Made by a program: the position numbers and the translations under genes. Shown here in pieces: positions 95 through 60,079 of a DNA stretch of 64,000 nt; positions within the stretch are counted from its first letter, which is position 1; every line of letters begins with the position of its first letter. Source of the stretch: Scolanthus callimorphus (taxonomy: Eukaryota; Cnidaria; Anthozoa; Actiniaria; Edwardsiidae); contig CM066913.1 of NCBI GenBank assembly GCA_033964015.1, positions 12,084,953-12,148,952 on the forward strand. Direction: 5' to 3'. Below the pieces are notes generated by a model. That model ran no database searches. It saw only the letters and a program-made list of their open reading frames with translations, and was not told the origin of the DNA.

Positions 95-1004
95 TAGTTA
101 AGCATACTTCAAAATGTGTCTCGTCCATTTGCACAGCCGGTGAAACATAAGTGCAGTGAGTTGTTTGCATCTACTGTGGTGACATCTGTACAAATTGCAC
201 CTGTGGTTTAAAGTTATTGAGTTCTGAATATTTAATGAAATGAAAAGGTAACTGTTTTGACAAACCTTCGAACTCTCTTTCACTTCTTGTAAGAGTAGAT
301 TAGACTAGTTCGTGTAAATAAATTGGATACCCGGGCAAGTCCCTGAACATATTTACTGGACATGCGTGGCTAAAGGCTAGCTAGGAGTGGCGATGTTCTG
401 AAATATTTGATGAACGCAGTAGACCTTAATACAGTAAAAACCCGCATAAAAGAACAAGTGGTTTAAAACACTCAGGCTGAAAATTGGCCAAAAGGTACCT
501 TACATAAGAACACATGCAGCCTGAAAAATGAAAATTGTTCTTGTATAAAACAATTGCTGCCAGTTAGATTCGAGTACAGTAACCCACTGTGTGGTAGAGT
601 ACCGAGTAGATCAATATAATGTGCTAGACCATGCACACACAGTTCTACAGTAGGAATTCCAGGGTACATTTAGACTAATTATGCCAACTCCCTTCCCAAT
701 CAAGCATTGGCAAAGCATATCTGCTGCGCATCCTGGGCTCTGTTTACTAGTCCAGTCATTGTGTGAAATGAGCTACAACTAATTGCAACAGAAAGTTTCT
801 CAACGGTTTTAGGGCCATAAAGTCAGCCTAACAAACATACTAAAAGTCCTAAAAAATCCATGTAGGGGAACATCTCAAATTCAAGTTTGAAAAAAACGCC
901 ACAATTTTCTTTTGTTGGCAGCCATCTTGCCCTTTGTGTGTGTGTTGGAAAAATGCATTATTTGAACATCCAGTGAACACAATTAAACTCTTTTTTAAAT
1001 ACAG
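95..1004. other. Non-coding stretch upstream of the first recognised exon
   Basis: AT-rich sequence, read as intron of the flavoprotein gene because the exon at 1005 is preceded by a pyrimidine-rich tract and ACAG. I found no ACAD N-terminal domain exon here on either strand. Confidence 0.4.
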
Positions 1005-13000: not shown

Positions 13001-15209
13001 TCCTAAACTGCCAGGGCTTTACGCCCCACATGCAATACGTATGGTAAATCACTTCTCGATATTGCTAAAAGTCATTTATCCTCCTCAAAATGCACTCTCC
13101 GCCATGGCTCAGTTGTCAGTTCACTAGCTCGTAGTATCGAGCGAGGCAAATTGGACGACAGTAAATATATCCTAGAGGCGTAGACGCACGTCCCGGGCGA
13201 ATATGCTGGACATGACCTGGAAAACAGGGCATTATAAGCTATGTTGTTGGAATGATTCTCTTTTATTATTGCATACATCATCATCATATGTTGAGTTTCA
13301 CTTGTCTCTCTTTACACATGTATACACGTAATATTTCTGTTTATACATGTATACACGTAATGTTTCTCGGACTCTTTATTATACATGTATACATCCGATG
13401 TTTTTCTCATGTAGACGCATGTTTCTCTTTAAGCATGTAGACGCATGTTTCTCTTTAAGCATGTAGACGCATGTGGGGGGTACTCGGATATAAAATGACG
13501 GGGGAGTCCGACGTATTTTTTTCGGTATGAAATTTGTACTAAAAGTTTTTTTGGGGGTTGAAAATTCTACCAGGTACTTTTTGGGTGTTGAATCCGCGGG
13601 TATTTTCTTGGGTTGGGACTTCTGACAGGCTAAAAAAGTGGGTACTTTTGGGTATCAAATTTTGGGAGCAGGTATTTTTTTTGGGGGAAAATTTATGGCT
13701 CAGGTATTTTTTTGGGGTATGAAATTTGGAGCTCCGTCGGACCCCCGTCATTTTTACATCCGAGTACCCCCCCCCCCGGGACTTAAACGCATGTTTCTCT
13801 TTATGCATGTAGACCCATGTTTCTCTTTATATGCAGGGAAAGAAACACAGACAAGAAGACGGTCAGCCATGAGCTCAGAAAGCTAACTACTCAAGAAAAG
13901 AAAGAGTTTTGCTCTGCGGCTCTTCAGGAAATAGAAGTAGAAGAGAAAACCGGCAAACGACCACCAACTTACCAGGACACCGAGTTCGACAACCCGTTCA
14001 ACACCGCTCCTGCACTCGTGAAGGGCCCAGTGGAAGAGCACAAACCCGCCCTGAACCCAAACACCTACAGCTCCGCGACTCTGGTGTCCATTACCCCATT
14101 GTGGAACAAGGTGTGCGAGTACAAATTCTCCCTACCCCACCCTGCAGATCAGACAGGATGCTTCGCGGGTCAGTACATCAAGGTTAAAGTGCCTAGCAAT
14201 GGACCGGGGGGGTGCGCAGTACGAACGAAGCCTGTCCCCTGTCAGTTCCACCAACCAGTACGGTCACGTGATGATTGTGTTGAAACACGAGTCCCATGGC
14301 CCGTTGTCTGTTATGTTCAAAGCTCTCAAGACAGGTATTTATCACATCATTCAAATCTCAAATGTCGAACGATTCAACTTATTCAGTCTGTCTGCCATGT
14401 TCAACGCATCAACAACAACAACTTTATTTCGCATTCCAAAGTTACATATGTATACACCTATAGGTTGCTTTGGTGCGGTTTCTGGTGTTTGATCTTTCAA
14501 TTATAGCGCGAAACAAAGAAATTATTGCTTCAGTGACCACGAAACAAAGGCGTTCAATGACCAAAGACCAATGACCAAAGCAACCTTTTCTGAATTAGGT
14601 GTATATAGATATATAGTAACTTCTATAACATAAAATACGCCTTGTCACCTTGGACTAATATTTCGCTTGTATTCCAGGTGATGCAGTAGAGTTCAAGGGC
14701 CCCTGCGGTGGCTACGAGTACACCCCGAACACCATCAAACACTTGAGCCTGCTGTCCAGCGGTATAGGATGCACACCTGCCATTCAAATCATCCGGAAAT
14801 CGCAAAGAACCCGGATGACAAACATCGGTCTCAGGGCTCTTCTACGCCGAACGCGAGTCCGAGACTCTGTACAAAGATGAAATGCTTGGCTATCAAATTC
14901 CAAGGTGCAAATCCAATACACCATAAGCGAGATTGAAACGCGGATTGGAAGGGAGGGGAGGGTTATATCAGTAAAGAGATGATAAGTGCTACTCTCCCTC
15001 CCCCTGAAGAGTACAAGTCTTGTCAGGTGTTGATTTGTGGAGGTCCTGCTATGGTATTGTCGTCTATTCAGAGCCTGTACGACTTAGGGGTCCCTAGTGA
15101 GAAGGTGTTTGTGTATGGTCCGTTTGGCGCGGAGCAGATCCGAACGGTGTATGGACGGTGGGCCAAGCTCTCGCCACACAAGATGGAGAGCGGGGACTCG
15201 GAAGAGTGA
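1005..15209 (+). CDS. Acyl-CoA dehydrogenase-like / ferredoxin-reductase-like fusion flavoprotein (5' partial; 3' end frame-disrupted)
   Basis: Exons I can join: 1005-1133, 1366-1547, 1653-1767, 2887-3056, 6042-6166, 10590-10750, 12867-12984, 13837-14334, 14678-15209, all with GT/AG borders and matching phases up to the eighth. The first exon begins in mid-codon, so earlier exons lie outside the window or were missed. Acyl-CoA dehydrogenase (ACAD) signatures: GGHFWIPL followed by GSWATSAGHADFYV (FAD-contact region), GLHGNHSGP, RACGGAGY, ERLYRDSKAGWVMGPSNEYI (C-terminal helical domain). After a linker of about 65 residues comes a reductase module: FAGQYIKVKVPSNGP, RSLSPVSS (the FAD-binding RxYS position, here Leu for Tyr), GPCGGYEYTP, SSGIGCTPAIQIIR (nucleotide-binding GxGxTP) and ICGGPAMVLSSI (CGP motif). 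Expected role: flavin redox chemistry on an acyl thioester, with electrons exchanged with NAD(P)H rather than ETF; this is inference. A 7-G run near 14203-14210 shifts the frame, and at least three more shifts lie between about 14790 and 14980, so it is either a recent pseudogene or locally poor sequence. Confidence 0.8.
2534..2640. mobile_element. Fragment of the MITE family seen complete at 41357-41492
   Basis: The segment with GTTATTTACCGACTGGGAGG and ACTGTGACCGAGG matches (in reverse orientation) the ends of the inverted repeat near 41.4 kb. Intronic, non-coding. Confidence 0.5.
3254..3369. mobile_element. Palindromic MITE abutting the minisatellite
   Basis: AACCATTATCCTGC ... GCAGAATATCGTCTGAT is mirrored by ATCAGACGATATTCTGC ... 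GCAGGATAATGGTT; the loop is CGGGACTTCGTCCC. It ends within a few bases of the first repeat unit of the array. Confidence 0.8.
3370..5398. repeat. Minisatellite of about 78 x 26 bp, each unit containing a copy of the upstream exon's 5' splice site
   Basis: Head-to-tail units with core CCTATCATACAGGTAATG fill this intron of the flavoprotein gene. Period is 26 bp, with substitutions and occasional 1-bp gaps. The same core, including the last 15 or so exon bases and the GT donor, occurs once at the real exon end (about 3040-3066). The array therefore looks like amplification of an exon/intron junction. The unit is not a multiple of three and no unit has an upstream acceptor of its own beyond the CAG in the core. 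Confidence 0.95.
5518..5708. mobile_element. Palindromic MITE
   Basis: TTAGTCAAATCACACTAGT at the left is mirrored by ACTAGTGTGATTTGACTAA at the right, with an inner hairpin around CTACTAGTAGGCTATAAC. Lies in the same intron as the minisatellite. Confidence 0.75.
6249..7860. mobile_element. 1.6-kb foldback element with repeated subterminal motif
   Basis: The left end (6254-6540) carries repeated CGTTCCCTTTTGGCAACGCG / GTTAACTTTTA motifs. The right end (7678-7856) carries their reverse complement. The interior contains a second small hairpin with a long C run (about 6895-6916) and an AT-rich stretch. I see no transposase. Confidence 0.7.
7868..8010. mobile_element. Palindromic MITE
   Basis: AATAACATGACTTTTGG ... 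TAGCATCATTTGC is mirrored by GCAAATGATGCTA ... AAAAGTCATGTTATT, with a GC-rich centre (CCCGAGCGCAGCGAGGG). Confidence 0.8.
8867..9252. mobile_element. Foldback MITE with arms of about 75 bp
   Basis: GAATGGGGAGTTTGCAGG and the following GTTGCGTGACATTTTGAA are mirrored at 9168-9252. The centre holds AAATTTGAGG-type sequence. Intronic, no ORF of note. Confidence 0.75.
10121..10464. mobile_element. Foldback MITE with internal repeats
   Basis: AACTTAAAATGAGGATTATC ... ATTGTTAAATGGCC at the left is mirrored by GGCCATTTAACAATTG-type and GATAATCCTCATTTTAAG sequence at the right. The motif GAGGATTATCATCA occurs twice per arm. Confidence 0.7.
10816..10900 (+). repeat. Possible tRNA-derived SINE fragment
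   Basis: A B-box-like GGGTTCAAGACC occurs twice in tandem (20-bp direct duplication), preceded by an A-box-like GGTGGTGCAGCGTTA. It does not fold into a complete tRNA. Confidence 0.3.
10934..11347. mobile_element. Short-TIR element of about 410 bp
   Basis: ATAGGAGGATCCTT at the left is mirrored by AAGGATCCTCCTAT at the right. AT-rich interior without coding potential. Confidence 0.55.
11380..12440. mobile_element. Possible 1-kb element bounded by inverted GGTCATTACGG-type sequence
   Basis: CCCGTAATGACCTC near 11443 recurs inverted near 12370 and direct near 12411 (with AATATCAAAGCTTCGGTTTGATATT forming a local hairpin, described by position 12385-12412). The interior is AT-rich with no recognisable protein. 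Boundaries are approximate. Confidence 0.35.
13310..13836 (+). repeat. Degenerate 26-bp-type array ending in the functional 3' splice site, interrupted by a foldback element
   Basis: Repeated units built on GCATGTAGACGCATG plus TTTCTCTTTA occur from about 13310 to 13473 and resume at 13779. The pyrimidine tract and AG of the acceptor used at 13836/13837 (TTTCTCTTTATATGCAG) are the last unit. Between the two blocks sits the 13474-13778 inverted repeat. Confidence 0.75.
13474..13778. mobile_element. G/C-run-ended foldback MITE inside the acceptor-proximal array
   Basis: The left end GGGGGGTACTCGGAT, then AAAATGACGGGGG, is mirrored at the right end by CCCCCGTCATTTTT, then ATCCGAGTACCCCC. About 305 bp long, with T-rich/G-run interior and no coding capacity. 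It interrupts a repeat unit, so it postdates the array. Confidence 0.8.
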
Positions 15210-15244
15210 AGTCCTACGAATAACTGACGTCGATGGTGGTAGTT

Positions 15245-15540
15245 ATGGTTTATGATCCCTCTCATGGGCCAATTACTTACATTACATCTACTGAATACAT
15301 CATAATAATAACACATCACCCCCTCATGGGCGGCCAATTACTTACATTACATCTACTGAATACATCATAATAATAACACATCACCCCCTCATGGGCGGCC
15401 AATTACCTACATTACATCTACTGAATACATCATAATAATACACATCACCCCCTCATGGGCGGCCAATTACTTACATCTACTGAATACATCATAATAATAA
15501 CACATCACCTCCTCATGGGCTAATTATTTACATTACATCT
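15245..15540. repeat. 65-bp tandem repeat, about 4.5 copies
   Basis: Units containing CATCTACTGAATACATC and CCCCTCATGGGCGGCCAATT repeat immediately 3' of the flavoprotein stop codon; the final copy is diverged. They could lie in its 3' UTR. Confidence 0.9.
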
Positions 15541-16613
15541 ACTGAACACCTAACAATCAATAATCCCCTTTCAAAATTAACAATTGATTGACACGTGGCA
15601 CCGTCCCTTACCTGTCCTGAGCACGGGTGACTGACTCAGAATAATTGTCTATGATTGTAACGTCAGTTAAGTGTAGCTTCCAGTCTCTTGTACCCATTGT
15701 AATTAAAGTCATTTCAGTTGGAAGCCAAGTTTTACATGATATGTTTTAACTTTGCAAGCCCGGGCTTTTTACTGGCTGTAAACCTACTCCCCTCATTCAT
15801 GTTCATTTAAGACTTGTAACTCCATTGTTGACGGAATAACCTCGAGACTGAGTAGATTATTGCATTTTTTACGGTAGGCTTGTACTGGTTCAATAGGTCA
15901 TGGAAATATTGTACATTAGCAGGAAGCCCCGTGCAAGGAATGACGAGAATTGTGTATGGGAGGCTTGTCTCTGAGGATAACGTAGTCAAATAAAAGAAAT
16001 TACTAAATATCGTGTCGTAAATTTCAGCATATTCTACAAACTCGGCAAGGGATAGCGAATGAACCCTGAATCCAGTCTCTACAAGAGCCTCGGCGTCTCA
16101 GTGATTTATTTGCGTCTCGAATAAACGCGTCTCGCGAACTCGGAATGGTTCGGGATTGGTTCGGGATTTTTATGTGGTTCTTCTTCAGGAGTATTGGCAT
16201 CAACTTATAGTGAGACTAAATATTCGAATGGTGTTTTGTTTAAGCTAAAATATTTCCTGCAACTATAAAGGTGTTCTCAATGGGCGCAGCTTCGTCAGTT
16301 CCCTGCTATATAGTCTTTTCACAGTTCATAGCCTGGAATCGAGTCTACCGTGACCAATATTCTACTTTTTTCCTTTACGCCCATTTCTAAAATATTATGA
16401 ATTTTCGAACCACAAAACAGGTACATCAAGTGTCAGTTTGAATTCTCGTGGTTTCCTTGTTAAACTTTACAGTATAGTTGGTCAGCGGTAGACTCGATTT
16501 CTGGCTAGAATTTGAATTTGAATGCAAGTTTGTCCAAGTAGTCCGTCTCTGAAGATCTCGAAAAAAAAAACAAGGCTCAACGCACCATGCACGGAGGTTG
16601 TGAGCTCTTGTTT
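15541..16613. other. Intergenic, no gene recognised
   Basis: Unique-looking moderately AT-rich sequence between the flavoprotein 3' repeat and MITE family A. Both strands show only short random ORFs. Confidence 0.5.
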
Positions 16614-16736
16614 AGGCCTGGTTTCAATATAGTCTTATCTGCGCATCAGTCGACCGTGAAACAATGGAAATTGAAATTATTCTTTTGTTTCACGATTGAC
16701 TGATACGACAGATAAGACTATATGGAAACCAGGCTT
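16614..16736. mobile_element. Palindromic MITE, family A copy 2
   Basis: GCCTGGTTTCAATATAGTC at the left and GACTATATGGAAACCAGGC at the right, same ends as 13-94. The centre GTTTCACGATTGACTGATAC is mirrored by the left half. Confidence 0.85.
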
Positions 16737-16864
16737 TACTACAGATACATGACGTGTTTCGACCTTTCGAGACTACAGAATGAGTTTTCACGAGCTCTTA
16801 CAGCAAATCACAAATGAGGCATTTCAAATTCAACTGTTCGACACGAGTAGTCATGTTCTCTTAA

Positions 16865-18553
16865 GGTGGATCGACCCAGTAATTTTGTACCCATGCCAAC
16901 CAATTTTGAACCTCTCATATAAAAACAGGTTGATTTCTATCGCGCAGCCAATATAACACATATGCTACCAATAGACTGAAATACATGTCAATACAAAATT
17001 TGGGGAGATCGGAGTTAGTATCACGTGACAATCGGGCTACGCCTATTTCTACTCTCAGCCCAGTTTCAACTGCAACGACATTTTTTTCGAAAAATGCTCT
17101 ACGGTACCCGGAGATGGAGTAGTTGCCTCCGTGTAAACCGAAGTTTGATTAAATTTTACAAGACCGATTTGAAGATATTTTAGGATTTATAAATAATGGC
17201 TATAATTTATGTAAAATTCAGTGAAGTGAATAAATATGTCAGAGTTTGGTACTTCATGGTTATTAATTGCAGGCTTTTATAGCCAAATCTATTTGTAATT
17301 GTTCAGGAAGGTCATGCTTTTGATAAAAATTAATATTATTTTGCGATTTCGAAAAATATAGAAATGTACGTATCAACATAATTCCTCCACGCATCGGCTC
17401 AACGCGAAATTTGGGCCTACTTCCACGAAATTTGGTCTGATTTAAAAAATCGTAGTTTTTTTTCGCTCCAAAATTTTGGACGACTCCAATGGATCAATGT
17501 AAAGTTTGTCTCCAACGTTTCGAAGCAATTGAAATCCTCTAAGGCTGTCAACTGGGGACGCAAAGATCGGTAAATATTGGATTAATTTCTATAGTTTCTC
17601 TTCTGGGATTTGCTTTTGTTCCCCATTCGGCACAAAATCGAATTCCAATGGAGCGCACATGGGCTTGTCCTTGCTTGGCTAGTCTCCAATGTATGATAAT
17701 TTTCTGAGGTTCTTTGGTCTTTTGTTATGCATTTAATTACCATATGTCGGGGACGATTCGGAGAGCAGTCAACCGCGAATATCAACGTGTTCTGCATTGG
17801 AAGAACAAAAGCAAGTCCCTGAGCGGAACTACACGAATCCATCCAATATTTACTGGTCTTTGCGTCCACAGTTGATGCCCATAGAACATTTCAATTGATA
17901 TGAAACGGCGGAGATAAACTTTACTTTGATCGATTGGAGTCGTCCAAAATTTTGGAGCGAAAAAACTACGATTTTTAAATCAGATCAAATTTCGTGAAAG
18001 TAGGCCCAAATTTCGCGCTGAGCCGATTCGTGGAGGAATTATGTTGATACGTACATTTCTATATTTTTCGAAATCGCAAATAATATTAAATTTTAATCAA
18101 AAGCATGACCTTCCTTGAACAATTACAAATAGATTGGGCTATAAAACCTTCAATTTATAACCATGAAGTACCAAACTCTGTCATGTTAATACATAACACT
18201 GGATTTTACATAAATTATAGCCCTGATTTATAAATCCTAAAATATCTTCAGATCTGTCTTGTAGAATTTAGTCAAACTTCGGTTACACCTAGGCAATCAG
18301 TCAATCTCGAGGTACCATAGAGCATTTTTCGAAAAATGTCGTTACAGCCTGAAACTGGTGTGAGAGTGGAAATAGGCGTGGCCCAATTGTCGCGTGATAC
18401 TAACTCCGATCTCCCCAAATTTTGTACTGACATGTATTTCAGTCTATGGGTAGTATGTGTGTTATATTGGCTGCGCGATGGAAATCAACCTGCTTTTGTA
18501 TGAGAGGTTCAAAATTGGTTGGCATGGGTGCAAAATTACTGGGTCGATCCACC
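16865..18553. mobile_element. 1.69-kb foldback element flanked by TTAA
   Basis: The termini GGTGGATCGACCCAGTAATTTT and its reverse complement are preceded and followed by TTAA (16861-16864, 18554-18557). Almost the whole element is two arms of roughly 0.8 kb that fold back with scattered mismatches to a centre near 17.7 kb. No transposase ORF; the ORF-like runs are shadows of the palindrome. A TTAA target is typical of piggyBac-superfamily mobilisation (established knowledge); assignment to that superfamily is inference. Confidence 0.85.
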
Positions 18554-18747
18554 TTAAGTCCTCTTTTGAGGGTAAACTATTGTTCCTTTATCTGTTGTTC
18601 TCGGGAGTAACCTCCTTGGTCTCGGCAAGTGCACTGTGCAACTATTCAACCGAGGCTGAATAATTGAGAATTAACATACTTCAGTCTCACAAGTATCCAA
18701 CAAGAGCCAATAGTTTTCAGGTGATATTTTCCGACTCAAGAAAACAA

Positions 18748-18930
18748 ATGCCAGTAGCTGAGATAATTCTGGGATGCGTAGCGCTGTTCGGAATTGTAAT
18801 GATCAATGGACAGCTATTATACTGCATTATCAAATTTGACAAACTAGCAAATGAAAGAGGGAACGAAGAGTCAAAAGGACAAGTGACAAATATCGTGACG
18901 ATAAAGAGAGCTCTTCTCCGGAGAATGTGA
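18748..18930 (+). CDS. Small single-pass membrane protein, family copy 1 (60 aa)
   Basis: Single-exon ORF starting MPVAEIILGCVALFGIVM, a hydrophobic segment (about residues 4-28) containing GIVxxNxQLLxC, then a charged tail (KFDKLANERGNEESKG). It aligns over the first 33 residues with copies at 20845 and 30686: shared AE, GC/GS-V-L, GI, N, Q, L-C. The topology would be one helix with a basic C-terminal side (inference). The tail may be frame-broken: shifting frame after about residue 43 gives an SSSPE-containing run to a TGA, then FDDIFDI (18960-18980), which resembles the acidic tail motif of copy 4. No known function; not a family I recognise. Confidence 0.55.
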   Translation: MPVAEIILGCVALFGIVMINGQLLYCIIKFDKLANERGNEESKGQVTNIVTIKRALLRRM

Positions 18931-19046
18931 AATCAAGAAAAGTTCAATTCAGCTATTGATTCGATGATATATTTGATATTCCTCTGGCCGAGAAGCGAAC
19001 AGGATGTTTGAGGGGCAGATCAAAACATTTGGTCACATAGCTCTCA

Positions 19047-19456
19047 AATCCGCTATGCCATGCAAATTTGACTGAGCTAGGATACTTATGTGGGGTCACA
19101 GTTAAACCATGGCATGTCTTCTAGTGTGGATCCGCTATGCCATGCACATTTGACTGAGCTAGGATAATTATGTGGGGTCACAGTTAAACCATGGCATGTC
19201 TTCTAGTGTGGATCCGCTATGCCATGCACATTTGACTGAGCTAGGATAATTATGTGGGGTCACAGTTAAACCATGGCATGTCTTCTAGTGTGGATCCGCT
19301 ATGCCATGCAAATTTGACTGAGCTAGGATACTTATGTGGGGTCACAGTTAAACCATGGCATGTCTTCTAGTGTGGATCCGCTATGCCATGCAAATTTGAC
19401 TGAGCTAGGATAATTATGTGGGGTCACAGTTAAACCATGGCATGTCTTCTAGTGTG
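19047..19456. repeat. 82-bp tandem repeat, 5 copies
   Basis: Units starting near GATCCGCTATGCCATGCA and ending CATGTCTTCTAGTGTG repeat at 19047, 19129, 19211, 19293 and 19375 with one or two differences each (A/C variants). They lie between copies 1 and 2 of the small-protein family. Confidence 0.95.
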
Positions 19457-19539
19457 CATGGCGACTCGACGTCCATCAAGCATAGACCTTCTTAGTGCAG
19501 GGAATCCATGTTAATATATTGTAGTGTAATTGTTACGCT

Positions 19540-19885
19540 CTAAATGTTTAGTTCAAGCAAGATCACGACCAAAATATGGAATTCTTTGCCAGCTTCTATC
19601 GCATCCCTTCAAAGAATAAAGATTGCCTGTTTTAAATCGAAATTACTTGAATTTTTGTTATAAGATAGTTTGCTGTAATCTGTGTTTCTTCTGGTTCGTG
19701 CTTGTTTCTGCTTTGTAAGTATTTTGGCTTTTTGCTGTGTGACAAGAGGGGCCTCCTCGCACGAGCCTAGTGTTTTTTGTGGTCCTCTCCCCTCTAAAAT
19801 AGACTATGTATATAACAAAAGGGAAAATGTGTATTCCTCAATGTAATATGTTTGTGTATGTGAAGCAAGTAATTGAATTGAAGAT
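19540..19885 (+). mobile_element. 5'-truncated non-LTR retrotransposon 3' end
   Basis: The reading frame KIWNSLPASIASLQRIK ... FKSKLLEFLL then stop is the usual C-terminus of LINE reverse transcriptase ORFs (CR1/Jockey-like WNSLP motif). It is followed by an untranslated tail ending in AATTGAATTGAA-type microsatellite sequence. Confidence 0.75.
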
Positions 19886-19987
19886 GCGCAAAGCCGGCCC
19901 TCGTCTGGCAAATCTTGGTGATCCAGATTCCTTAGAGGATGTTAGCTTCAGTTAGACTGATAAGTGAAGCGAGACGTCATCTCTATA

Positions 19988-20202
19988 AAGCCCGGTGCAC
20001 ACTAGCGACATAAGGACGTTATGTTGCAACGATAATAGCATGGGAAAATAATTGAAATAATCAATTTTTTCCATGCATCATCATTAGATTACTTCCCCAA
20101 AGCAATCTTCTGTGGACTGCAACGTTTTAAAACTACAAAATTTTGTTCGCGTGATATTGTTCTTATTTCGTTATGTCGCAAGACAGTGTGCACCAGGCAT
20201 AA
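19988..20202. mobile_element. Foldback MITE
   Basis: GCCCGGTGCACACTAGCGAC plus ATAA at the left, TTATGTCGC ... GTGTGCACCAGGC at the right; AT-rich interior. Confidence 0.75.
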
Positions 20203-20844
20203 CCCATCTCCATTTTTATGTATGCTTTGTTAAAGCATAAGAACCAGTGCCTAACACCAACCAGCATTTCTAATTCACTGATAACTAGGACACTAGTTAT
20301 GTTTTATTTCCACCTGTGGCACAACAAGCAATTGATTTCTTGTCACAAACAGGCTTCATTACTCTACGACAAGTGGTGCAGCTTGCGTGCAAACGAACCT
20401 TGTCGCTCCAGGGACTGATTACTGAAGGTCACACGAATGGGATTACGCTACGTATAGAGATTTTTCTCCTGCTTTTGCAAATTGTATAATGAAACTTTAG
20501 TGTGTCCCATATTCAGTGATTTCGTTTTTATGCCACTTTGAGAGTTTATCTTTTAAAGGAGCGTCAACAGAAAGGACATAGATAACAAAACACCTTTTGT
20601 CCGAGGGTAACGAGCAAGACAAAGCATCCTTTTTCCCTAACATCGCATGAGGTTTAGCCTCATTGAGTGGTTGCACGTCATGGTTCCCGAGGGTTGTCCA
20701 TTACACTCCGTCAGACGTGCGTGGCGTTCCTTGCAGACACTTACTCACTGACAGGTCTCTCTGCCGCATGAAGGAATAGAGAAGGGAATAGCATGAAAGA
20801 ATAGAGCAAGGAAGAGCATGAAGGATAGAGAAACAAAGTGAAGA
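20203..20844. other. Intergenic, probable 5' flank of small-protein copy 2
   Basis: No gene seen. Just before the ATG are three imperfect GAAGGAATAGAG / AAGGATAGAG repeats (about 20768-20830). Confidence 0.4.
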
Positions 20845-21024
20845 ATGCCCCTCGCCGAGTTTGTTCTAACATGTGTATCCCTAGCTGGAATTGTTCTCGC
20901 CAACACTCAATTCCTCTGCTGCATCTTGCAACTGGAAAGGCTGGGTTACTTGGTCACCGGAGAAACACAAGGACTAGAAAGAGCGAAACGAGACTCTTTT
21001 AAGGACTACAGTTCGTCTGACTGA
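20845..21024 (+). CDS. Small single-pass membrane protein, family copy 2 (59 aa)
   Basis: Single-exon ORF opening MPLAEFVLTCVSLAGIVL, then NTQFLCCILQLERLG and a charged tail ending KDYSSSD before TGA. The hydrophobic stretch spans about residues 5-30. Position-by-position it matches copy 1 (AE at 4-5, C at 10, V-L, GIV, N, Q, L-C, then a basic residue and Leu), while the DNA around it is unrelated. That pattern suggests protein-level selection. No signal peptide distinct from the helix and no known domain. Confidence rests on the family resemblance, since a 59-aa ORF alone would be unremarkable. Confidence 0.55.
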   Translation: MPLAEFVLTCVSLAGIVLANTQFLCCILQLERLGYLVTGETQGLERAKRDSFKDYSSSD

Positions 21025-21835
21025 AAATATATATCTCATGCTATACAGATAGACAGAAGCATTGTAGTTTGTTGTCTTTTCACTTATATTCATAACTCAT
21101 GCTATGTATACAATATATTTCAAGCTATAAATAAATACGCGCGCACAAGCTTCGACTTCACTACGAGGATTGAGACTCGAATTGAGACATAGCATTCACA
21201 ACCAAGGGGCATGGAATCACTACGGCCCGAATAATCATCTGAACCAACTTTCGGATAGAAAGGGGATTTAACTATCAAAGAACAAAGCATCGAGTAGTTG
21301 ATCTTATTCGGCGGTATCATTGTTATGGGATTTCAGACAAACGTTTGACATTTTCTCTCCATCTCTTCTTTTTTATCGAAACTTTGTAATATTTACAATA
21401 TAGGTTTTAACGTCTGGAAAGTGCAAGAAAAATGTGAACACGCAGAAAATAATTTCGTTATCGATAATAGTTTAAATCACTAACAAATCGATACCCTGGG
21501 CACAAGAGTCTACAGGGAAACAAATCGACGGCTCGCCACGATTTTTTCGGCCCTACAAGGCATTCAACATGATAATACAGGCATCCGCCGACAAAGCATC
21601 CAGCATCCAGCCGCAAGCGGAATCCAGCATCCATTTCGTTTTGTTTATTGTTTGGGCTCCACGCCAAGCAAAAAGGACCCCGACAACATAATTGTACAGC
21701 TTAACTTTATGGCTCAATGCCTGTAATTTCTCAAGAAGGACAATATTTTGACTCGGCATGGAAAAACTGTACGAAAAAAATGAATTATGGAATGTTGTGT
21801 CGCTGAATATTAAAAATTAAATTAAGGCACCGTTC

Positions 21836-22198
21836 ACACTACGCCGGCTAAATTTGAGAACAAATTTTGCGTCCACACTTCGCCGCAATCGGAAAGGGAA
21901 CAAAAGTTTTCCGTCCACGCTACGCCGGCTAAATTTGAAAACGCACAAAAACGTCAGCGCATGCGCCGAAATGAAAAACTAGAGCCCGCGGTCATAAATT
22001 TCTCGCAGTCGTGTGAAATGACGTCATCGTTTTCGAAAAGTTCCGTTTTCGCCGTCCACACTAAAACGTGTAGCCGGCGTTGTCAAATTTAGCCACTTTC
22101 GGCAGCGTTTTCGAAAAAATCCGTTTTCGGTAGGAAATTTAACGGTAGAAATACTAATAAGCCGTTTTCAAATTAGCCGGCGTAGTGTGGACGGGGCC
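21836..22198. mobile_element. 363-bp foldback MITE flanked by TTAA
   Basis: TTAA (21832-21835) then GGCACCGTTCACACTACGCC at the left; GGCGTAGTGTGGACGGGGCC then TTAA (22199-22202) at the right. The interior repeats CCGGC / TTTTCG motifs in inverted order. Same target sequence as the 16.9-kb and 43.2-kb elements but different termini. Confidence 0.85.
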
Positions 22199-22202
22199 TT
22201 AA

Positions 22203-23226
22203 TATGACAGGTATTGCAAGTCGTCCTGGCCATGTGCTTGGCGTCGGAGCAATGCTCTTTTGATCATGTTCATAATTTTTAAAAAGCGCAATATAAGCAT
22301 TAAACATTCCAATTATTACTCACTCACAATTAGCCAACATTGTAAGTATATATCGATCATTTGAATCGGTTTTGCTGGGTACGGCACGGCGCACTCTCGA
22401 AACATTTCTCTATGACAGTTTACTAGACAACTATATACCACCGTGTAGATGGGCACTATTTTTTATGTTGCATTTGCTGGTGTAGACGAGAATGTGACAA
22501 ATATGAAGTAACTTTTTAGCGCATCAATTTATGCGATATATGATATCATGCGCTTGAAAATATCATTAATATTGGCAAACAAAAACTGCCAGACACAATA
22601 AACAATAAATAGTGTGGCTTTCTCATAAATGAGCTTTCCTTTACGTAGACTTTACAGTAGCGTGTAAAAGGTGAATTAATGAGTAGAGCAGTTAGTTTCT
22701 CATGTTCGATCCTGCAGGGCATAGGGGACGATACAATAACTAGTCAATACATATAAAGAAAAAAAAGGTCATATACTTGAAATAAGCTGAATGTAATGGA
22801 GGACACAGTGTCCGAAATCTTACAGGAATATAGAGAAATTGGGCCGGAATAACAAGTCACGCAAGCCATATAAAAATCAATATACACCAGGTCCTTAAAA
22901 GCGAGAACACGAAATTATGTGAATTGTGTGAAATTGACTCCGCGGTTATTGGAAAAGTTAAAGCCGCTCGTTAGGTTCTAATTATAGGCTGCTCAGGCCG
23001 CCAGTGAATGAGCGCAACTGACTTGTGGTTCGTGTGTCGGCAAATCGCGTGCGAACCCTGGAGCAGTTAGAAGACTCCCGTGTGAGTGGCATACGACTTG
23101 TAAAACAAAACGCAACTTGCTTGGTTTTGGGTTTGCGACTATACATTTAGTAGTAAACAAAGCGAGCGTCTTGAATGCACCCAGAAATTTCGACTTGGAG
23201 TGAAAGGGAGTTGAATAAGAGTGAGC
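22203..23226. other. Intergenic, nothing recognised
   Basis: AT-rich; no coding region or repeat stands out on either strand. Confidence 0.4.
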
Positions 23227-23546
23227 ATGATCGTGGGAGAAGTAGTCATTGCTTGTCTAGTCGTGGCCAGCATTGTGGCCCTTGGCGCCAAGCTCTTCTG
23301 CTGTGAAGATGAGAACATCAAACATGTGGCAAGGGACAGAAAGAAGCGTTTCAAACACCAAACACAGGAAACACAAGCACTGAGACTTCGTCGTCCTCTT
23401 TGGGAGGGTTTGGGCATATTGAGATTATGGATGTAGGATGGTCTAGTGATCATGACTCAACACCGATACCAGACGGCACGAGCTCATCTGCGGTCTCGAG
23501 TGGTACAGACGACTCAGGTCACCCTGATGGGACTAGTAGTGAGTGA
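23227..23546 (+). pseudogene. Small single-pass membrane protein, family copy 3 (frame-broken or sequence error)
   Basis: The ATG at 23227 opens MIVGEVVIACLVVASIV, then KLFCCEDENIKHVARDRKKR: one hydrophobic helix (about residues 2-26) followed by a strongly basic segment. The ATG frame runs on to a TAG at 23434-23436 with an unlike-family tail (ALRLRRP...). From 23376 the next frame reads STETSSSSLGG, FGHIEIMDVGWSSDHD and on to a TGA at 23544-23546. That tail matches the ETHQSTSSDE and FHDIEIIDIDSS of copy 4. One missing base near 23370-23376 explains everything; a sequencing error and a real 1-bp deletion fit equally well. This is the most diverged helix of the four. Confidence 0.55.
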
Positions 23547-24325
23547 ATGTCGTGACAGCCGCGTCACACACAAATCACGAGAAAGCGAGAGAAAGACAAG
23601 AGCAATCAAAACTGATCAATTAAAGCGACCCTCAGATACATTAATATGAGTGCAAGCTAATTCAGGGTAAAATTGTTTGATTCGAGCAATTTGAATTTCA
23701 GCAAATATATACGTGATTAAATTATTAGGTTATATAGCGCCTTGAGACTTACAAGGATGATGATGACAGACTGTGCTCAGTGCAGTAGTTCATACTAGTG
23801 AAATAACTACTACTCTTTGGAACACTATTGTGAGTGAAGTTGTTACACATTGATGACAATATCTACTGCTATACTGTAAGTCCTCTTAAGGCGGTACTTC
23901 TTAAAACTTGGTTTAAAATAGGCCACAAAGCATGCATGTTCTACTGCAATTTGGTTTATAACTCACTTGATTCCCAGTACTCAGCATAAATTTGCGTTTC
24001 CCAAATAAATTTCGGTTGTCTTTTGAAACACAGAGCGTTTTCGAGGGGAAGGGGAGGACACTTAATCATATCCGATAAAAGAACGCATAAAAAATAACAA
24101 TGCTGTTTTGTCTCTGCTTGAGTTCGGACGATAAGGTCGTGTTATGTATGTGACCAACGGGTAAATGAGATGAAGCCTTACTATACGTGGGTTCGTATCT
24201 AAAATTATTACATGATTGACACCTTTTCTATTGTTATTCAAGACCCTTTATTTGACTTAAATCCCTATGAATTAATTACATTCTTAAAGAACGGGAGGGT
24301 TTGAAGTTTCAGCAGGGAAGATTGG
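23547..24325. other. Intergenic, nothing recognised
   Basis: AT-rich with no supported ORF. Confidence 0.4.
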
Positions 24326-24457
24326 GGCTATTATTGAATAATTAGTCATAAATGACCCGCATTATAATGCGCGGGTCTTTATGGAACATTGATTCTCATA
24401 AATGACCCGGCGCATTTATAACGAGGAGCAATTATGACTAATTAGACAAATAAAGCC
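24326..24457. mobile_element. Palindromic MITE
   Basis: GGGGCTATTATTG ... AATTAGTCATAAATGACCC is mirrored by CAATTATGACTAATTAG ... AATAAAGCCCC. An inner CCCGCATTATAATGCGGG-like hairpin is centred near 24367. Confidence 0.7.
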
Positions 24458-25045
24458 CCACACTTCCGATGCTGAAACATTTACAGCTAATGATACATAC
24501 TACAAAATTGTTTGCTAGGTTAAATTGAAAATAAATATATGAACAAAAAAGTAATTACTAGCTTTAACTGAATAGTGTGCTCTAAATTGCAAATTGGCGA
24601 TTCTTTCTACTTTTCTACTAAATTTAACTATAATTAATATGGAATAAGTAGATTTTATATGTAACCTTGCTAGCCGTTCCATTTCTGCTTCACGCTCAAC
24701 AAACTGTGAAAGAAATAGAAATAAAATAATTTAGAACATTGAGCTCATACAATACATTTGCACAACACATTTTAAATTTCTTTCGTCAATACATTTTAAC
24801 CAGTTTGTCAATTTAGGATGGACCTCTTACGTCGCAGCATCAACGGCACACAGGTCTAATACGTTCAAGTTAGTCAATGCAATTTAAATTCACCAGACCG
24901 TTCTATTTTCACTGTTATAATAAACGAATTACTATAAATAAGAACTTTAGTTAAACTTACCATGTCGTTCTCATCACCAACTACAGGACACTTTGAAATG
25001 TATTATCTCTTGAACAGCTTAAAACCCACAGTGAGTGCCGAGTTA

Positions 25046-25868
25046 ACAGGTGTTATTGAATTTTTAATGAGGACATTTAGTTGGTGCATGCGCAGATCCA
25101 ACCTTTGAAGAACAAAGAACTCATTACGTATGCAGGGATCACAGCAGAGATGGTCAAGAAACAAATTGGAAGCTCATGACGGTCTGATTTTGGCCGTATT
25201 TTTCCTCATCTAGTGGGAAGTTCAGCTTCATATCCCGAAACCATGTAAGTCGAGTATTCAACTTCACTGTATGAAAGTAATTACAGCGATCAGCATTGTT
25301 TTTTTGCTTCAGTATTTATCGCATCGCGTTCGAATACCTGTTCTGACGAGGTTTGCAGAATTGCGAAATTATTCGTCATACTTTTAGATACCTTGACCAT
25401 ATCTTTGTTCTCGACATTTTCCCGAGAATGTGATTGCCCGCCGCAGTTAGTACATGCCTTTAGCGGCTTAAAAATCAGGTGAGTGTCATTGGCCGCTAGC
25501 TAGATCGCGAGAATTACGTCTTTTCAGTTGAACATTGTTTCGAAAATCGAATGCAATTTTCACATAAATCTGTACGTGACAAGTATGAAAGGATTTAAAA
25601 AAATTAATTCGAGGACGCAGGTTTTGCTTATAATGTCTAGAAAACTGGCAATGGAATACTGAAACCTTACTTTTTGCCAGCATTGGGAGGATGATAATCG
25701 GGTTTTGGATGGGAACAGTTTAAAAACCGGAAAAATATTGGGGGTTGAAAGAAGCATAAGTTGACTGTTATTTTATGTGGTTATGAATGTGAGCTGCTGC
25801 AGCCATCTGTAACCTTGAGATCCTTGATTATGCTGTTCTAGTGTACAGCTGTTTTGACATTGGTTTTT
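25046..25868. repeat. Left arm of an 0.8-kb long inverted repeat
   Basis: From ACAGGTGTTATTGAATTTTT to GTACAGCTGTTTTGACATT, this arm is the near-identical reverse complement of 28388-29210, with scattered substitutions and 1-bp gaps. No convincing protein is encoded. Confidence 0.9.
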
Positions 25869-28387
25869 GAACGTTTCTGATCTGTAGTGCAACCAAAATA
25901 ACCACAGTATGAAATTAGAGTAATCTCAACATTCATATATTTTTAGACTGTAAATCAACGATTTTTAAATCATTATCTATTATTAGTTATTGGTATATAT
26001 TATTATTATTTATATTGTTTTTTAGGCATGGCCCCACAAGCTGTATAGCTTTAATTCAAACCATGGATAATTAAAGTTATTTTAAATTATTATTATTACC
26101 TCAAGGTGCCTGTCATTATTTTTGATCACCTTGTTCTCGATATTATAGATGTCTAAAAGCTTGTATTTTCTTTTCTCATGGCATCTCTCGGCTCCTGTTT
26201 TGCCTGCTTTTTACCTTATTTCCTCGTGGAGCTTACATGCATATGAAGAGTTTGGCTAGTGCTGATCTGTAGACTTCAACTTATTGTGTATCTTCTGAGG
26301 AACAGGACTTCATTTGTTCCTGTAATCCTGCTGCAGCAAACAAGGTGAAACATTCATGGGAGGCCTTAGCAAGGGAGCAAGGCAATTTGCCATCCATGAG
26401 GGCCAGGCACAGATCCAGGGGGGTTCATCGGGTGCAAATGAGCTCCCACTCTCCCAAACGAACCGGTTTTTTTGGGATCGGTTTGCTAAAGACCTTTCAT
26501 TTCAAGAGTGTTTTTTTTCTATTATGTGACCCAGTAATTAAATTCATGTTTAGCAACCACGATTTCGCCTCGTGAGAGGGCCACGGACAACAGAGAAGGA
26601 TAGGTATTATAGAATGTTTCCTCATACGTTGCACTTCATCAGCAAAATGCACCCCCCCCCCCCCCCCCCCCCCCCCTTAAAATCCTGGATCCGCCACTGG
26701 GGGCTTTTTACATAGTGAAATGTCACCAAAATGTGGCAATTATAAAGATGGTAATTTAGCAGGTTCGTGGAAATGGTAAGGGCAATAAGACCAGTGAGCC
26801 GTCCTGCACCCCTCTCATTCATTTATACATTTACCCGTATACACTGCACTTCTTTTGATGGGCTGTGCATATTGTCAATGATGAACTGTATATGGTGATT
26901 ATAAGCACATTTTAGTTAAGGAGACATGCTGAAGCCCCATAGAAGCTGTGTTTTCTTGGTTGTGTTAGGAAGGGCATCAAGCTGTCACACTCTAGGAGAC
27001 GGGTTGTGGGGTTGTGTCCCCCCCCCCTTCGAGAGTTATAGATTTGAAGAACTCTGGTTATGAAAAGGCTTTGAACTCAGTACGGATTATAACCAGTCCA
27101 TATAACCAGTCCAACTTAGTGCTGAAACCCTCCATCTGAAAAAATCCTGGATCGGCCCCTGTACAGTCACACCTTTTAGTTGGACTGAAATGCTAATTTG
27201 TGTGAACAACATGAATACAGTGGCCAATGCTACATGCCTATAGATTGTCTGATAATGTGACAGTTCTGGAACAAATTGAAGAGATCATTTAATTTCCTGG
27301 CCATGTCATAAAAGTCTTTGGTAATAGCAGCAAGGGGGTCTTCTCTACGATGTAGCTAATAACTAGAAATGCTTAAAGTCTTTGGTTTTCTCTAGCTAAC
27401 AAAAATCTTACTTATCTCAAACAGTCTTATCATGTAAAGCATTGGGTGAAGGTCAACTTGGAAACCAACTTTGTTGAAATTACTACTGTGAAACAAAGTT
27501 AAATATTGATTAATTTTTTTATAATACGGTACATCATTCTCTCACCAGAGCTCCCCAGATTGTCACCTCGCAGCGAGGCTCTGGAGACAGCCATTGACGC
27601 ATGCGCAGAGCATTTGATACAAAGCCATAGAGAGAAAGATCCCTCTGTGAATGCACAAACGTTCAAAGCCAGCCAATCAGTGAAAGACGAGGCGGGGAGC
27701 TAAAAAAACACAGGCGGCACTAGCTTTTTAACCCCCCCCCCCCCCCCCCACGGATCCAGAATTTCCGAAATGGCTTACCCCCCATGCATATAGAATTCCT
27801 GAGAGGTTAACATAGCTTCCAGCTTCAACAAACACTACTGTTTTGTCCTTTCTCTCTATTTGTCTTCGATTTTATTGGGACATTGCATCCATTTTAGATC
27901 TAGATCCACCGCTGTTAGTGTTTTCAAAAATATTTCAAGGAAAATGGTCAGAGTAGTAAAAACATTTTCAGTAGTTGTGGTCCCCCTTTCCCAAATGCTG
28001 GCTGTACCACAGTGCTTTTTGCCATGGAACATTGAGTACAAGGTGATCACATAATGACAGCAAGGTACCTTAACGATGGCATTACTCTACTTTCAGAATA
28101 ACTGACTGTAGGTATTTTCAGTGGCGGATCCAGTTTTTTAAAGACAGGGGTTTTACAAAGCTTGGTCAATTTCCAAGCAAGAAATTCTATTGCTTCCGAT
28201 ATCGATAACATTACGCAATAAATCGTCGTTTGAACTTTATTTTGTTACATTAGTTTTTCTTTCTTTCCTACAAAAGGCGTAAAAGGGGGGTGCGGAGGCA
28301 CTCAGAAGCGGATCTAGGGTAAACTCTGACTGTAGTGCGGTAGTGATTTATGACAATAACTGATAAAACAAACATAAGATCTCCCTG
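25869..28387. other. 2.5-kb spacer between the long inverted-repeat arms
   Basis: AT-rich sequence with C runs (26651-26677, 27728-27749) and several copies of a TGGCGGATCCAGGAT-type hAT terminal motif (26684, 27140, 28121, 28304). It also holds a 158-bp foldback copy at 27546-27703. No gene recognised. Confidence 0.6.
27546..27703. mobile_element. Foldback MITE, family B copy 1
   Basis: Starts CAGAGCTCCCC, continues CCTCGCAGCGAGGCTCTGG and GACGCATGCGCAGA, and closes GACGAGGCGGGGAGCT. A related copy lies at 62811-63014. Confidence 0.65.
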
Positions 28388-29210
28388 AAAATGTCAAAAC
28401 AGCTGTACACTAGAACAGCATAATCAAGGGATAGCTCAAGGTTACAGATGGCTGCTGCAGCAGCTCACATTCATAACCAAATAAAATAAAAGTCAACTTT
28501 ATGCTTCTTTCAACCCCCAATATTTTTCGAGTTTTTAAACTGTTCCCGCAAAACCCGATTATCATTACCTCCCAATGCTGGCAAAAAGTAAGGTTTCAGT
28601 ATTTCATTGCCAGTTTTCTAGACATTGTAAGCAAAACCTGCGTCCTCGAATTAATTTTCTAAATCATTTCATACCTGTCACGTACAGATTTATGTGAAAA
28701 TTGCATTCGATTTTCGAAACAATGTTCAACTGAAAACACGTAATTCTCGCGATCTAGCTAGCGGCCAATGACACTCACCTGATTTTTAAGCCGCTAAAGG
28801 CATGTACTAACTGCGGCGGGCAATCACATTCTCGGGAAAATGTCGAGAACAAAGATATGGTCAAGTATATCTAAAAGTATGACGAATAATTTCGCAATTC
28901 TGCAAACCTCGTCAGAACAGGTATTCGAACGCCATGCGATAAATACTGAAGCAAAAACAATGCTGATCGCTGTAATTACTTTCGCACAGTGAAGTTGAAT
29001 ACTCGACTTACATGGTTTCGGGATATGAAGCTGAACTTCCCACTAGATGAGGAAAAATACGGCCAAAATCAGACCGTCATGAGCTTCCAATTTGTTTCTT
29101 GTCCATCTCTGCTGTGATCCCTGCATACGTAATGAGTTCTTTGTTCTTCAAAGGTTGGATCTGCGCATGCACCAACTAAATGTCCTCATTAAAAATTCAA
29201 TAACACCTGT
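28388..29210. repeat. Right arm of the long inverted repeat
   Basis: Reverse complement of 25046-25868, ending ATTCAATAACACCTGT. The two arms plus spacer span 4.2 kb, either a large foldback transposon or an inverted segmental duplication. I could not identify a target-site duplication. Confidence 0.9.
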
Positions 29211-29847
29211 GGAGTTCTTCACGCGCATAATGTACCCTTTTAGTCTTGGGACCTCAAGCGTTGTTTTTTCCTCCGAAACTCGTTCTCAGTCGCCAACTTA
29301 GAACTACTAGCTCAGCACTCAAGCACTGACTCCTACAAAATGACGACCTAAAATCGCGAAAAACAGGTGTTTTGATTTCTTTTGTTGTTTGATACAAAAA
29401 GAAGTACTTCCATTGGTCGTTTAAAAATGAATGCATGGAAGCTAAAGGAACAATAGCCCCACACTTCTGTTTGTAGTCTCCCAACCACTCTAGGGATATA
29501 TTCTTTAATTTAATGAAACGGGGGCTTTAGAATGCAAACAAATCTATTGTGAAAGGCACCTTCTCTGCAGTGAAATTGCCACGCAAAATACACGTTATTA
29601 TGAGAAGTTGAAAAGAAAAAAGACATTCAAGGCATCACAGATTTCCCAGCCAACACTGACGACAATAGCTTTCAAAACAATTTTCATCCTTTTGTTCCGA
29701 TACGACTTAAACCTCAGGGGATATCCCTCTCCTGGAAAAAATAAAGATCCCTGGTTGATTTATATGGATAAAAAACGCTTATTTGACGAAGTATTTTCGC
29801 TTTTTTAATTGAAATGCGCTCCACCCGATAGTAAAATCACCTTAGAT
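29211..29847. other. Intergenic, nothing recognised
   Basis: No coding or repeat structure supported on either strand. Confidence 0.4.
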
Positions 29848-29969
29848 CAGGTAATAAGTCAGTTAAATACCTCGGTCTTCGGCAATATGGCATATAAATA
29901 CCTCGGGCCTACGGCCCTCGGTATTTATATGTCATATTGCCTCAGCCCTCGGTATTTAACTCTTACTTA
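29848..29969. mobile_element. Palindromic MITE
   Basis: TAAGTCAGTTAAATACCTCGG and ATATGGCATATAAATACC are mirrored by GGTATTTATATGTCATAT and CCTCGGTATTTAACTCTTA; the loop is GGGCCTACGGCCC. Confidence 0.8.
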
Positions 29970-30685
29970 GTACCAAAATAGGCCTGGTCCAGCCCTCTCC
30001 TCCTTACAATTATACATACAGCTATTTCGATAACAAACAAACGCGACCACACTGCAGGAGTTGTGGTGTAAATGACTGTGAGATACCAAGAAAAGAATCG
30101 AGAATAAGGTACTGCACGTGTGATTTGAGAAATCTACAAGCTCTTTACCCATATTTGACTATATACCCTAGCTATACCATATATCCTAGCTACCATATAT
30201 ATCATGGGAGCTACCCGTGGCTATTAATAGTCACAACTACTCATGTTACTTTCTTTGAGCTTGGACATTACATGCCCGCGAATCTCCTCTGCATAGGCAC
30301 TTGATGCTCATTCCTAGAACATATAAGGGGGTACGATGTATACGACTTAACATAATAGGTGGCGCAGTGTGATTGTGCACGACCCCCGGATCGACCAACC
30401 GTATCGACTTTTCTCTGTCCCGAGTAGCTTGCTTATAGCTTTGAACCTTTCACCTGGAGCTCTGATAAGAGAAAGGGGGTAAAGTGGTGCACCGTCGACC
30501 TCAGGTTTGTCAGTTGAATTACTGTTACGAGTTAAATAAAGGACTTTACTTTTGCAATGGAAAAGCCTTCGACTGTGAAGATGCTAGACAATAAACTACA
30601 GACATACAAATATCAATCCTTTCTAAACGAGCTGTATTCTATATATGAGTATATCTAGCCGAGACTTGACTCAAGGTCTATAACA

Positions 30686-30928
30686 ATGGCGGAGATCATT
30701 ATAGGAAGCGTTGCCTTGTTCGGTATCATCTTAGTAAACGCACAGCTCTTGTGTTGTGTTGTCAAACTTCAGAGGATGTTGAAAGAAAACCGAGAATACA
30801 AGAAAGCGAGAGAAAGGAGAAGGTGGTATAGCAAAGTACACAGGGAGACACATCAAAGCACATCTTCCGATGAATTTCACGACATTGAAATCATAGACAT
30901 AGACAGTAGTAACACTGAGATAAACTAA
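30686..30928 (+). CDS. Small single-pass membrane protein, family copy 4 (80 aa, fullest copy)
   Basis: The ATG at 30686 opens MAEIIIGSVALFGIILVN, then AQLLCCVVKLQRMLKENREY (hydrophobic about residues 3-28, then a basic amphipathic stretch KKARERRRWYSK). An acidic Ser/Ile/Asp tail follows (STSSDEFHDIEIIDIDSS, end NTEIN, TAA). The helix matches copies 1 and 2; the tail motif F-x-x-IEI-(I/M)-D-(I/V) matches copy 3 in its alternative frame. Plausible topology is a short luminal/extracellular N-terminus and a cytosolic basic-then-acidic tail (positive-inside rule; inference). No intron, no recognised domain. Downstream lies a 12-bp tandem repeat. This copy is the best query for homology searches. 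Confidence 0.65.
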   Translation: MAEIIIGSVALFGIILVNAQLLCCVVKLQRMLKENREYKKARERRRWYSKVHRETHQSTSSDEFHDIEIIDIDSSNTEIN

Positions 30929-30933
30929 CAGTC

Positions 30934-31032
30934 AAGTTAGGATTCGAGTTAGGATTCGAGTTAGGATTCGAGTTAAGATTCGAGTTAAGATTCGAGTTAG
31001 GATTTGAGTTAGGATTCAAGTTAGGATTCCAG
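30934..31032 (+). repeat. 12-bp tandem repeat TTAGGATTCGAG, about 8 copies
   Basis: TTAGGATTCGAG / TTAAGATTCGAG units start 6 bases after the stop of small-protein copy 4. An oppositely oriented array of the same unit lies at about 31673-31755, with a short direct copy at 31566-31590. Confidence 0.9.
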
Positions 31033-31430: not shown

Positions 31431-31640
31431 TACAGTGGCGGATCCAGGATTTTTCAAGGGGGGGGGGGTCCGTTTTTTCACTTTTCCCAAGATGCAACAG
31501 TATGATTACGTAGATACCCGCGCACGGTCTGGGTACTGGCATGTTTATTTGAGATAAACTAACAGTCAAGTTAGGATTCGAGTTAGGTTTTGGCTGTGGT
31601 AGGCATATCTTGAACCCTCCTAAAAAAAAAACGGAAAACA
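31431..31640. mobile_element. hAT-like MITE fragment (CAGTGGCGGATCCAGGA end)
   Basis: The terminus CAGTGGCGGATCCAGGATTT followed by a G run is the widespread hAT-family end also seen at 28121 and, reversed, at 26684. The other end is not clear. Confidence 0.45.

Positions 31641-54154: not shown

Positions 54155-54189
<35 letters not shown>

Positions 54190-60046: not shown

Positions 60047-60079
<33 letters not shown>

Follow-up and report, generated by a model that had tools for sequence, protein, structure and literature searches.

The window analysed here is a stretch of 64,000 nucleotides from the genome of Scolanthus callimorphus (C3:12084953-12148952). It had been predicted to contain four copies, within 12 kb, of a family of small single-pass membrane proteins, encoded by open reading frames (ORFs) at 18748, 20845, 23227 and 30686. 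All four ORFs, here called c1 to c4, are found at these positions on the + strand. The cluster extends past the window, to a further copy, c0, 10 kb upstream. The copies had been taken as intact; c1 is frame-broken as assembled and c3 is a doubtful relative. The elements of the cluster are as follows.

C3:12074481-12074693, 10 kb upstream of the window: c0, 70 residues without the stop.
18748..18930, + strand: c1, a 60-codon ORF; the first 36 codons are the conserved hydrophobic segment and the remainder is out of frame relative to c0.
18855..18959, + strand: tail of c1 in the frame of c0, 34 residues, Lys/Arg-rich and then SSS, plus a stop; the same tail is in frame in c0.
20845..21024, + strand: c2, an open 59-residue ORF with the invariant Glu, an uncharged run at residues 6-30, FLCC and a short charged and Ser-containing tail.
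23227..23436, + strand: c3, a 69-residue ORF, probable divergent member by its hydrophobic segment only.
23379..23546, + strand: c3 tail with IEIMDV, in a frame different from that of 23227-23436.
30640..30646, + strand: TATATAT, 46 nt before the c4 ATG.
30686..30928, + strand: c4, an open 80-residue ORF and the longest copy, with an uncharged run at residues 4-26, LLCC, a Lys/Arg/Glu-rich segment and a STSSDEFHDIEIIDID tail.

The TATATAT element is a pattern match alone, and the same type of pattern has no match within 200 nt upstream of c1, c2 or c3. AATAAA follows the stop codon at a distance of 106 nt in c2, 269 nt in c4, 568 nt in c3 and 685 nt in c1. The last c4 codons and the start of its 3' region (30916-30956) recur 634 bp downstream at 31550-31590, with 97.6% identity over 41 nt, beside 12-bp repeats.

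Sequence comparisons indicated that c1, c2 and c4 are clear paralogues. Among the 2181 stop-to-stop segments of at least 20 residues in the window, they retrieve one another at E-values of 2.2e-10 to 7.7e-7 (26.7-37.1 bits). Over the first 32 residues, each of the six pairs among c1-c4 scores above all of its 2000 shuffles. Pairs among c1, c2 and c4 score 86-102 and pairs with c3 score 49-51; the best unrelated score among 120 transmembrane-like ORFs is 39. Profiles built from three copies, without the one in question, recover c0 at 1.4e-15, c4 at 2.1e-15 and c2 at 1.3e-11 among 7227 segments, and c1 is recovered at 3.9e-13 by a profile that lacks both c0 and c1. These mutual scores refute a chance resemblance of hydrophobic ORFs for c0/c1, c2 and c4, and we give that explanation almost no credence; c3 alone lies near chance level.

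The resemblance is maintained at the protein level. In neutral simulations, sequences drifted to their present DNA distance and the BLOSUM sums were compared (31 codons, 24 in pairs with c3). The observed protein similarity was reached in 0 of 2000 simulations for five pairs and in 2 of 2000 for c2-c3. Among c1, c2 and c4, codons differ at 3-6 of 31 second positions and at 19-21 of 31 third positions. The similarity sets in at the ATG or two codons past it. Estimates of nonsynonymous (dN) and synonymous (dS) divergence by NG86 gave no usable dS in five of the six pairs; the sixth, c2-c3, is saturated (dN 0.56, dS 3.03). The copies c0, c2 and c4 are open and paralogous, and their protein-level conservation is concentrated in the first ~31 residues. 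The proposed family of selected, single-helix proteins is borne out for c1/c0, c2 and c4 by the pairwise, shuffle, neutral and profile tests.

The evidence on c3 is divided. It matches c1, c2 and c4 with pairwise E-values of 0.03-0.15 among the window segments (9.7-11.8 bits), compared with best random scores of 10.7-11.7 bits in 50 Markov windows. When its first 50 residues are the query, an unrelated ORF at 36228 (E 0.083) outranks c1 (E 0.11). The tail of c3, read in its other frame, modestly matches that of c4 at a similar distance from the start; this match is equalled by 12 of 400 random regions, and by 11 of 1500 when the position must agree. Two results speak against membership. The c0/c2/c4 profile gives c3 8.2 bits (E 1.1 among the 7227 segments), which is under two unrelated ORFs and under the best random score of 11.8 bits. 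The score of the c3-c4 tail match is attained by 80 of 1000 shuffles. The motif F-x-x-IEI-(I/M)-D-(I/V), which the original prediction had placed in two copies, is in frame in c4 alone; the IEIMDV of c3 lies outside the frame of its hydrophobic segment. We hold c3 as a probable rather than an established member, divergent and perhaps decaying, because the shuffle, neutral and positional tests favour it and the left-out profile disfavours it.

Comparison with c0 clarified the structure of c1. c0 carries the hydrophobic segment of c1, then KRERRVKRTSDKYRDDKESSSPENVKSRKVQFSY, and reads on past the break in c1 as KRERRVKRTSDKYRDDKESSSPENV.... Over 209 nt the two copies have zero substitutions and c1 has one base fewer. 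Because of this missing base, c1 runs out of frame after codon 36, and the tail previously given to it belongs to another frame. The 209 coding nucleotides without a substitution compare with 14 substitutions in the 1000 nt upstream, although these are few events. Judged from this alignment, the assembled c1 is a duplicate of c0 with a broken frame. The two copies lie in a larger duplication:

13791..19136, + strand: duplicated block with reductase exons and c1/c0, corresponding to C3:12069562-12074868 (96.9% identical by blastn).

For this 5.3-kb block, blastn counts 50 mismatches and 54 gap openings. Alignment with MAFFT gave 52 mismatches and 46 gaps, including one-base gaps at 28 places in the window copy and at 11 places upstream. 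In the window copy, the FAD-binding domain of a cytochrome-b5-reductase-like exon is divided between two frames (13787-14503 and 14055-14489; E 0.0046 and 0.00098, both falling short of the curated cut-off), and the second frame by itself has no match in PDB sequences. The domain is whole in the upstream duplicate (L010:5562-6200, E 1.9e-11). Because the reductase exon is split in the window and whole upstream, the frame breaks in the window copy point to assembly indels or pseudogene decay. The flanking DNA of the copies, described earlier as unrelated, is so among the four window loci, with no flank match better than E 0.005; the neighbourhood of c1 is duplicated around c0. Among the matches listed, the duplicated region reaches about 20-25 kb (935-20497 versus C3:12056800-12081684), in pieces 81-98% identical with long unmatched gaps. 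It would be either a tandem duplication or an uncollapsed haplotype. Further matching pieces among those listed, at 81-94% identity, are rather divergent for two haplotypes.

We consider it somewhat probable that the array is partly decayed or mis-assembled. The copies c4, c0 and probably c2 would then be genes, and c1 and c3 would be pseudogenes or damaged by assembly indels. The base that c1 lacks and c0 has, the reductase domain that is split in the window and whole upstream, and the 28 versus 11 one-base gaps beside 52 mismatches are all consistent with such damage, as is the out-of-frame tail motif of c3. However, c2 is without any sign of decay. For c3, whose membership is itself doubtful, there is no second copy to point out a wrong base, since the genome search with c3 finds c3 alone. 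This explanation is compatible with the one we favour below.

Alternatively, c3 and perhaps c1 could enter the second frame through a short intron or programmed -1 frameshifting. GT-AG pairs with the right remainder are present in c3, for example 23348-23406 (59 nt) and 23303-23406 (104 nt), and the two alternative tails share one relative frame. However, the donor contexts appear poor by eye, and the sequence of c1 contains no GT between its hydrophobic segment and its tail. Moreover, c4 and c0 require neither mechanism, and the difference between c0 and c1 is exactly the missing base. We regard an intron or a frameshift as very improbable. A canonical slippery site was also considered, on the basis of a heptamer, GGGTTTG, spotted by eye in c3, and was dropped.

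The remaining family consists of c0, c2, c4 and perhaps c3. Its members have 59-80 residues and share a single hydrophobic helix and a charged tail; one Glu and one Cys are invariant. The N-terminal flanks are MPVAE in c1, MPLAE in c2, MIVGE in c3 and MAE in c4, each with a net charge of -1. The uncharged runs that follow start at residue 4-6 and comprise 23, 25, 16 and 23 residues in c1, c2, c3 and c4, respectively. The 20 residues after the run carry net charges of 0, 0, +3 and +7 in the same order. Glu3, Ile14 and Cys24 (c4 numbering) are invariant both in the four-row alignment of c1-c4 (A1, with c1 as read) and in the alignment in which c0 replaces c1; in the latter Arg44 joins them. N-x-Q is present in three of the four window copies. 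AlphaFold2 run on A1 predicted a single helix for residues 2-61 of c4, with a mean predicted local distance difference test score (pLDDT) of 74.6 and a predicted template modelling score (pTM) of 0.38. The final 19 residues are non-helical and of low confidence. A single-pass membrane topology is plausible because of the uncharged runs of 16-25 residues and the one long predicted helix. The tails are alike in composition and not in alignable sequence. SUMO-interaction, sorting and 14-3-3 motifs in them were considered and dropped, such consensus sequences being too short for a meaningful test.

We propose, with about equal weight for and against, that the locus is a tandem cluster of genes for membrane microproteins of 59-80 residues that would act as reverse signal-anchor accessory subunits or adaptors. 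The genes would be short and apparently single-exon. The conserved N-terminal segment would be an uncleaved reverse signal-anchor helix, with the N-terminus outside or in the lumen and the tail in the cytosol. This orientation is suggested because the N-terminal flank has an invariant Glu and no Lys or Arg, and basic residues follow the helix. Close to the end of this helix, the invariant Cys is likely to be S-acylated. With its polar positions at the Glu and in N-x-Q, the helix would bind a larger membrane protein as putative partner, and the variable, charged, Ser-containing tail would make or regulate a cytosolic contact. An accessory or adaptor function with the N-terminus out and the C-terminus in is our best guess from the sequences. 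The family might also be one of an animal lineage, in which a constrained helix (invariant Glu, Ile and Cys) is combined with fast-diversifying cytosolic tails encoded in tandem, the tails serving as alternative adaptors for one conserved membrane partner; we regard this extension as doubtful.

The chief functional rival holds that the conserved segment serves as a signal peptide and is cleaved off, and that the products of the family are secreted peptides that diverge fast. Signal-peptide cleavage follows the (-3,-1) rule, and a fitting pattern occurs at one alignment column as V-N-A/Q, I-N-G/Q, A-N-T/Q and L-G-A/K, and the residue that precedes the Q/K column is small in each of the four window copies. 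The tails also vary far more than the N-terminus and are unalignable above shuffles. However, the n-region has no Lys or Arg and contains the invariant Glu instead. The uncharged run extends beyond the putative site to 23-25 residues in three of the four copies, and the single long predicted helix of c4 spans the site. We consider cleavage unlikely and prefer the uncleaved anchor.

The proposal of selected, membrane-anchored adaptors has further points to answer. The second-position signal is partly expected for any hydrophobic segment. Of the 95 window ORFs that start with ATG and have 55-90 residues, 50, 11, 10 and 26 outscore c1, c2, c3 and c4, respectively, in codon usage; the copies do not stand out by this measure, which was dropped as uninformative evidence for coding. 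The argument for the topology is weakened by C-terminal flanks that lack a net charge in c2 and in c1 as read. The uncharged run of c3 has 16 residues and then meets a Lys. The tails align no better than shuffles: the score of the c4 tail is attained by 181 of 1000 shuffles with the alternative frame of c1, by 645 with c2 and by 80 with the alternative frame of c3. An absence of homologues outside the locus had been named beforehand as a count against the family, and none was found in this genome or the collections searched, which did not cover other animal genomes. What the data establish is a coding signal and a propensity to form a helix, and nothing beyond these.

Small membrane proteins of this build are known. 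FXYD pump regulators such as phospholemman have a single span, a tail inside and cysteines just inside the membrane; the tail is regulated, and the FXYD motif precedes the helix. The cluster proteins are predicted to share the single span with an inside tail. Unlike FXYD proteins, they have no FXYD motif and only 3-5 residues ahead of the hydrophobic run, and no FXYD model is among the Pfam hits. Pump micropeptides of the sarcolipin, phospholamban and DWORF type are short and have a single, C-terminal helix, with the N-terminus in the cytosol. In contrast, the helix of the cluster proteins is N-terminal, the uncharged run of every window copy beginning at residue 4-6. Stannin has cysteines near its helix end. 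Hemotin and Stannin are described as 88-residue membrane peptides of insects and vertebrates encoded by small ORFs, with an N-terminal membrane helix, a cytosolic tail, localization to early endosomes and binding to 14-3-3zeta (PMC4807881). On that description they resemble the cluster proteins, whose membrane insertion and topology are predicted, in size, in being conserved most strongly in the N-terminal membrane helix and in the tail behind it (PMC4807881). No stannin is among the Pfam hits of c1-c4 and c0 or their PDB sequence hits up to E 10, although the HMMER filters drop most weak matches. Hemotin and Stannin may illustrate by analogy what such a build can do; homology was undetected. 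The small cysteine-rich proteins of reef corals are reported to be a taxonomically restricted cnidarian family (PMC2652719), which the cluster family would resemble in this respect. They are cysteine-rich by name, and the cluster family has one invariant cysteine.

Searches of the genome (597 Mb, 302 contigs) with c2, c3 and c4 returned the cluster only. With c4 as query, three places are found at E<=0.001: c4, c1 and the new copy c0. With c2, four places are found at E<=1, namely c2, c0, c1 and c4, all in the cluster. The search is not very sensitive, because the c4 query misses c2 and c3 at E<=0.001, and remote relatives elsewhere in the genome may have been missed. A profile scan of the surrounding 214 kb (C3:12004001-12218000) and six further 10-kb stretches found no additional member.

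Instead of single-exon genes, the ORFs could represent initial exons of longer genes or belong to a mobile element. Two large inverted repeats are found nearby, one immediately upstream of c1 (16860-18558) and the other in the interval from c3 to c4 (25046-29210). However, c0, c2 and c4 end in in-frame stops, and the repeat search finds no such element beside c2. The copies also have no common DNA flanks, and all genome places found fall in one cluster. We consider this origin improbable.

The family had been called unrecognised, and this agrees with the searches of Pfam, NCBIfam, PHROGs, PDB sequences, the protein collection, IMG/VR and GTDB contigs, in which it is unmatched and animals are poorly covered. 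In the protein collection, restricted to candidates of 0.55-1.75 times the query length, c4 found no candidate with three shared words, and alignment A1 found 45 candidates, none at E<=1. Cnidarian proteins with annotation are present in the collection: the homeobox ORF in the window has a protein of Nematostella vectensis as its best named hit (62% over 92 residues), with two better-scoring hits unnamed. Searches with c4 alone gave 22 pattern matches in IMG/VR and 80 in GTDB contigs, zero of them confirmed; these two collections, of viruses and prokaryotes, are hardly informative on animals. Neither Pfam (best E 0.066) nor PDB sequences gave a credible match for c1-c4 and c0, and NCBIfam and PHROGs gave none for c1-c4 and the c3 tail, without c0. 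Two matches of c4 were judged to be chance: TIGR04443 (E 0.0064, 15.6 bits where the cut-off is 300) and phrog_33640, of unknown function (E 0.0035). No Rfam match was credited at gathering thresholds. Among the matches listed, no publication on this microprotein family was recognised. The kind of protein, a membrane microprotein, is already known, and the family itself had no match in these collections.

Gene finding is known to be blind to many small membrane proteins, and a tandem family whose relatives are not known offers paralogues that can be tested together at a single locus. The cluster also indicates that frame breaks in duplicated assembly blocks can give rise to spurious tails and conceal genuine ones: one of the four proteins, c1, was corrected by c0, its duplicate beyond the window.

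Other features are found in the window.

36120-38961: Laminin-G exons; the gene may be like agrin or perlecan, the name being a guess.
44907-44980, minus strand: predicted tRNA-Thr (CGT).
51467-52018, minus strand: FGGY-family carbohydrate kinase exon (E 2.6e-7).
58270-58773: homeobox exon (homeodomain E 4.9e-21).

The homeobox exon lies among exons (53494-60741) that resemble a sphingomyelinase-type phosphodiesterase by eye; three of these were tested and had no Pfam hit. The inverted-repeat elements at 16860-18558 and 25046-29210 have arms that are 83-93% and 76-100% complementary, respectively, and a near-copy of the first is located at C3:12039295-12040977. A 26-bp satellite occupies 3370-5399 (78.3 copies, 89% matches) and is also present at C3:12059-12063 kb.

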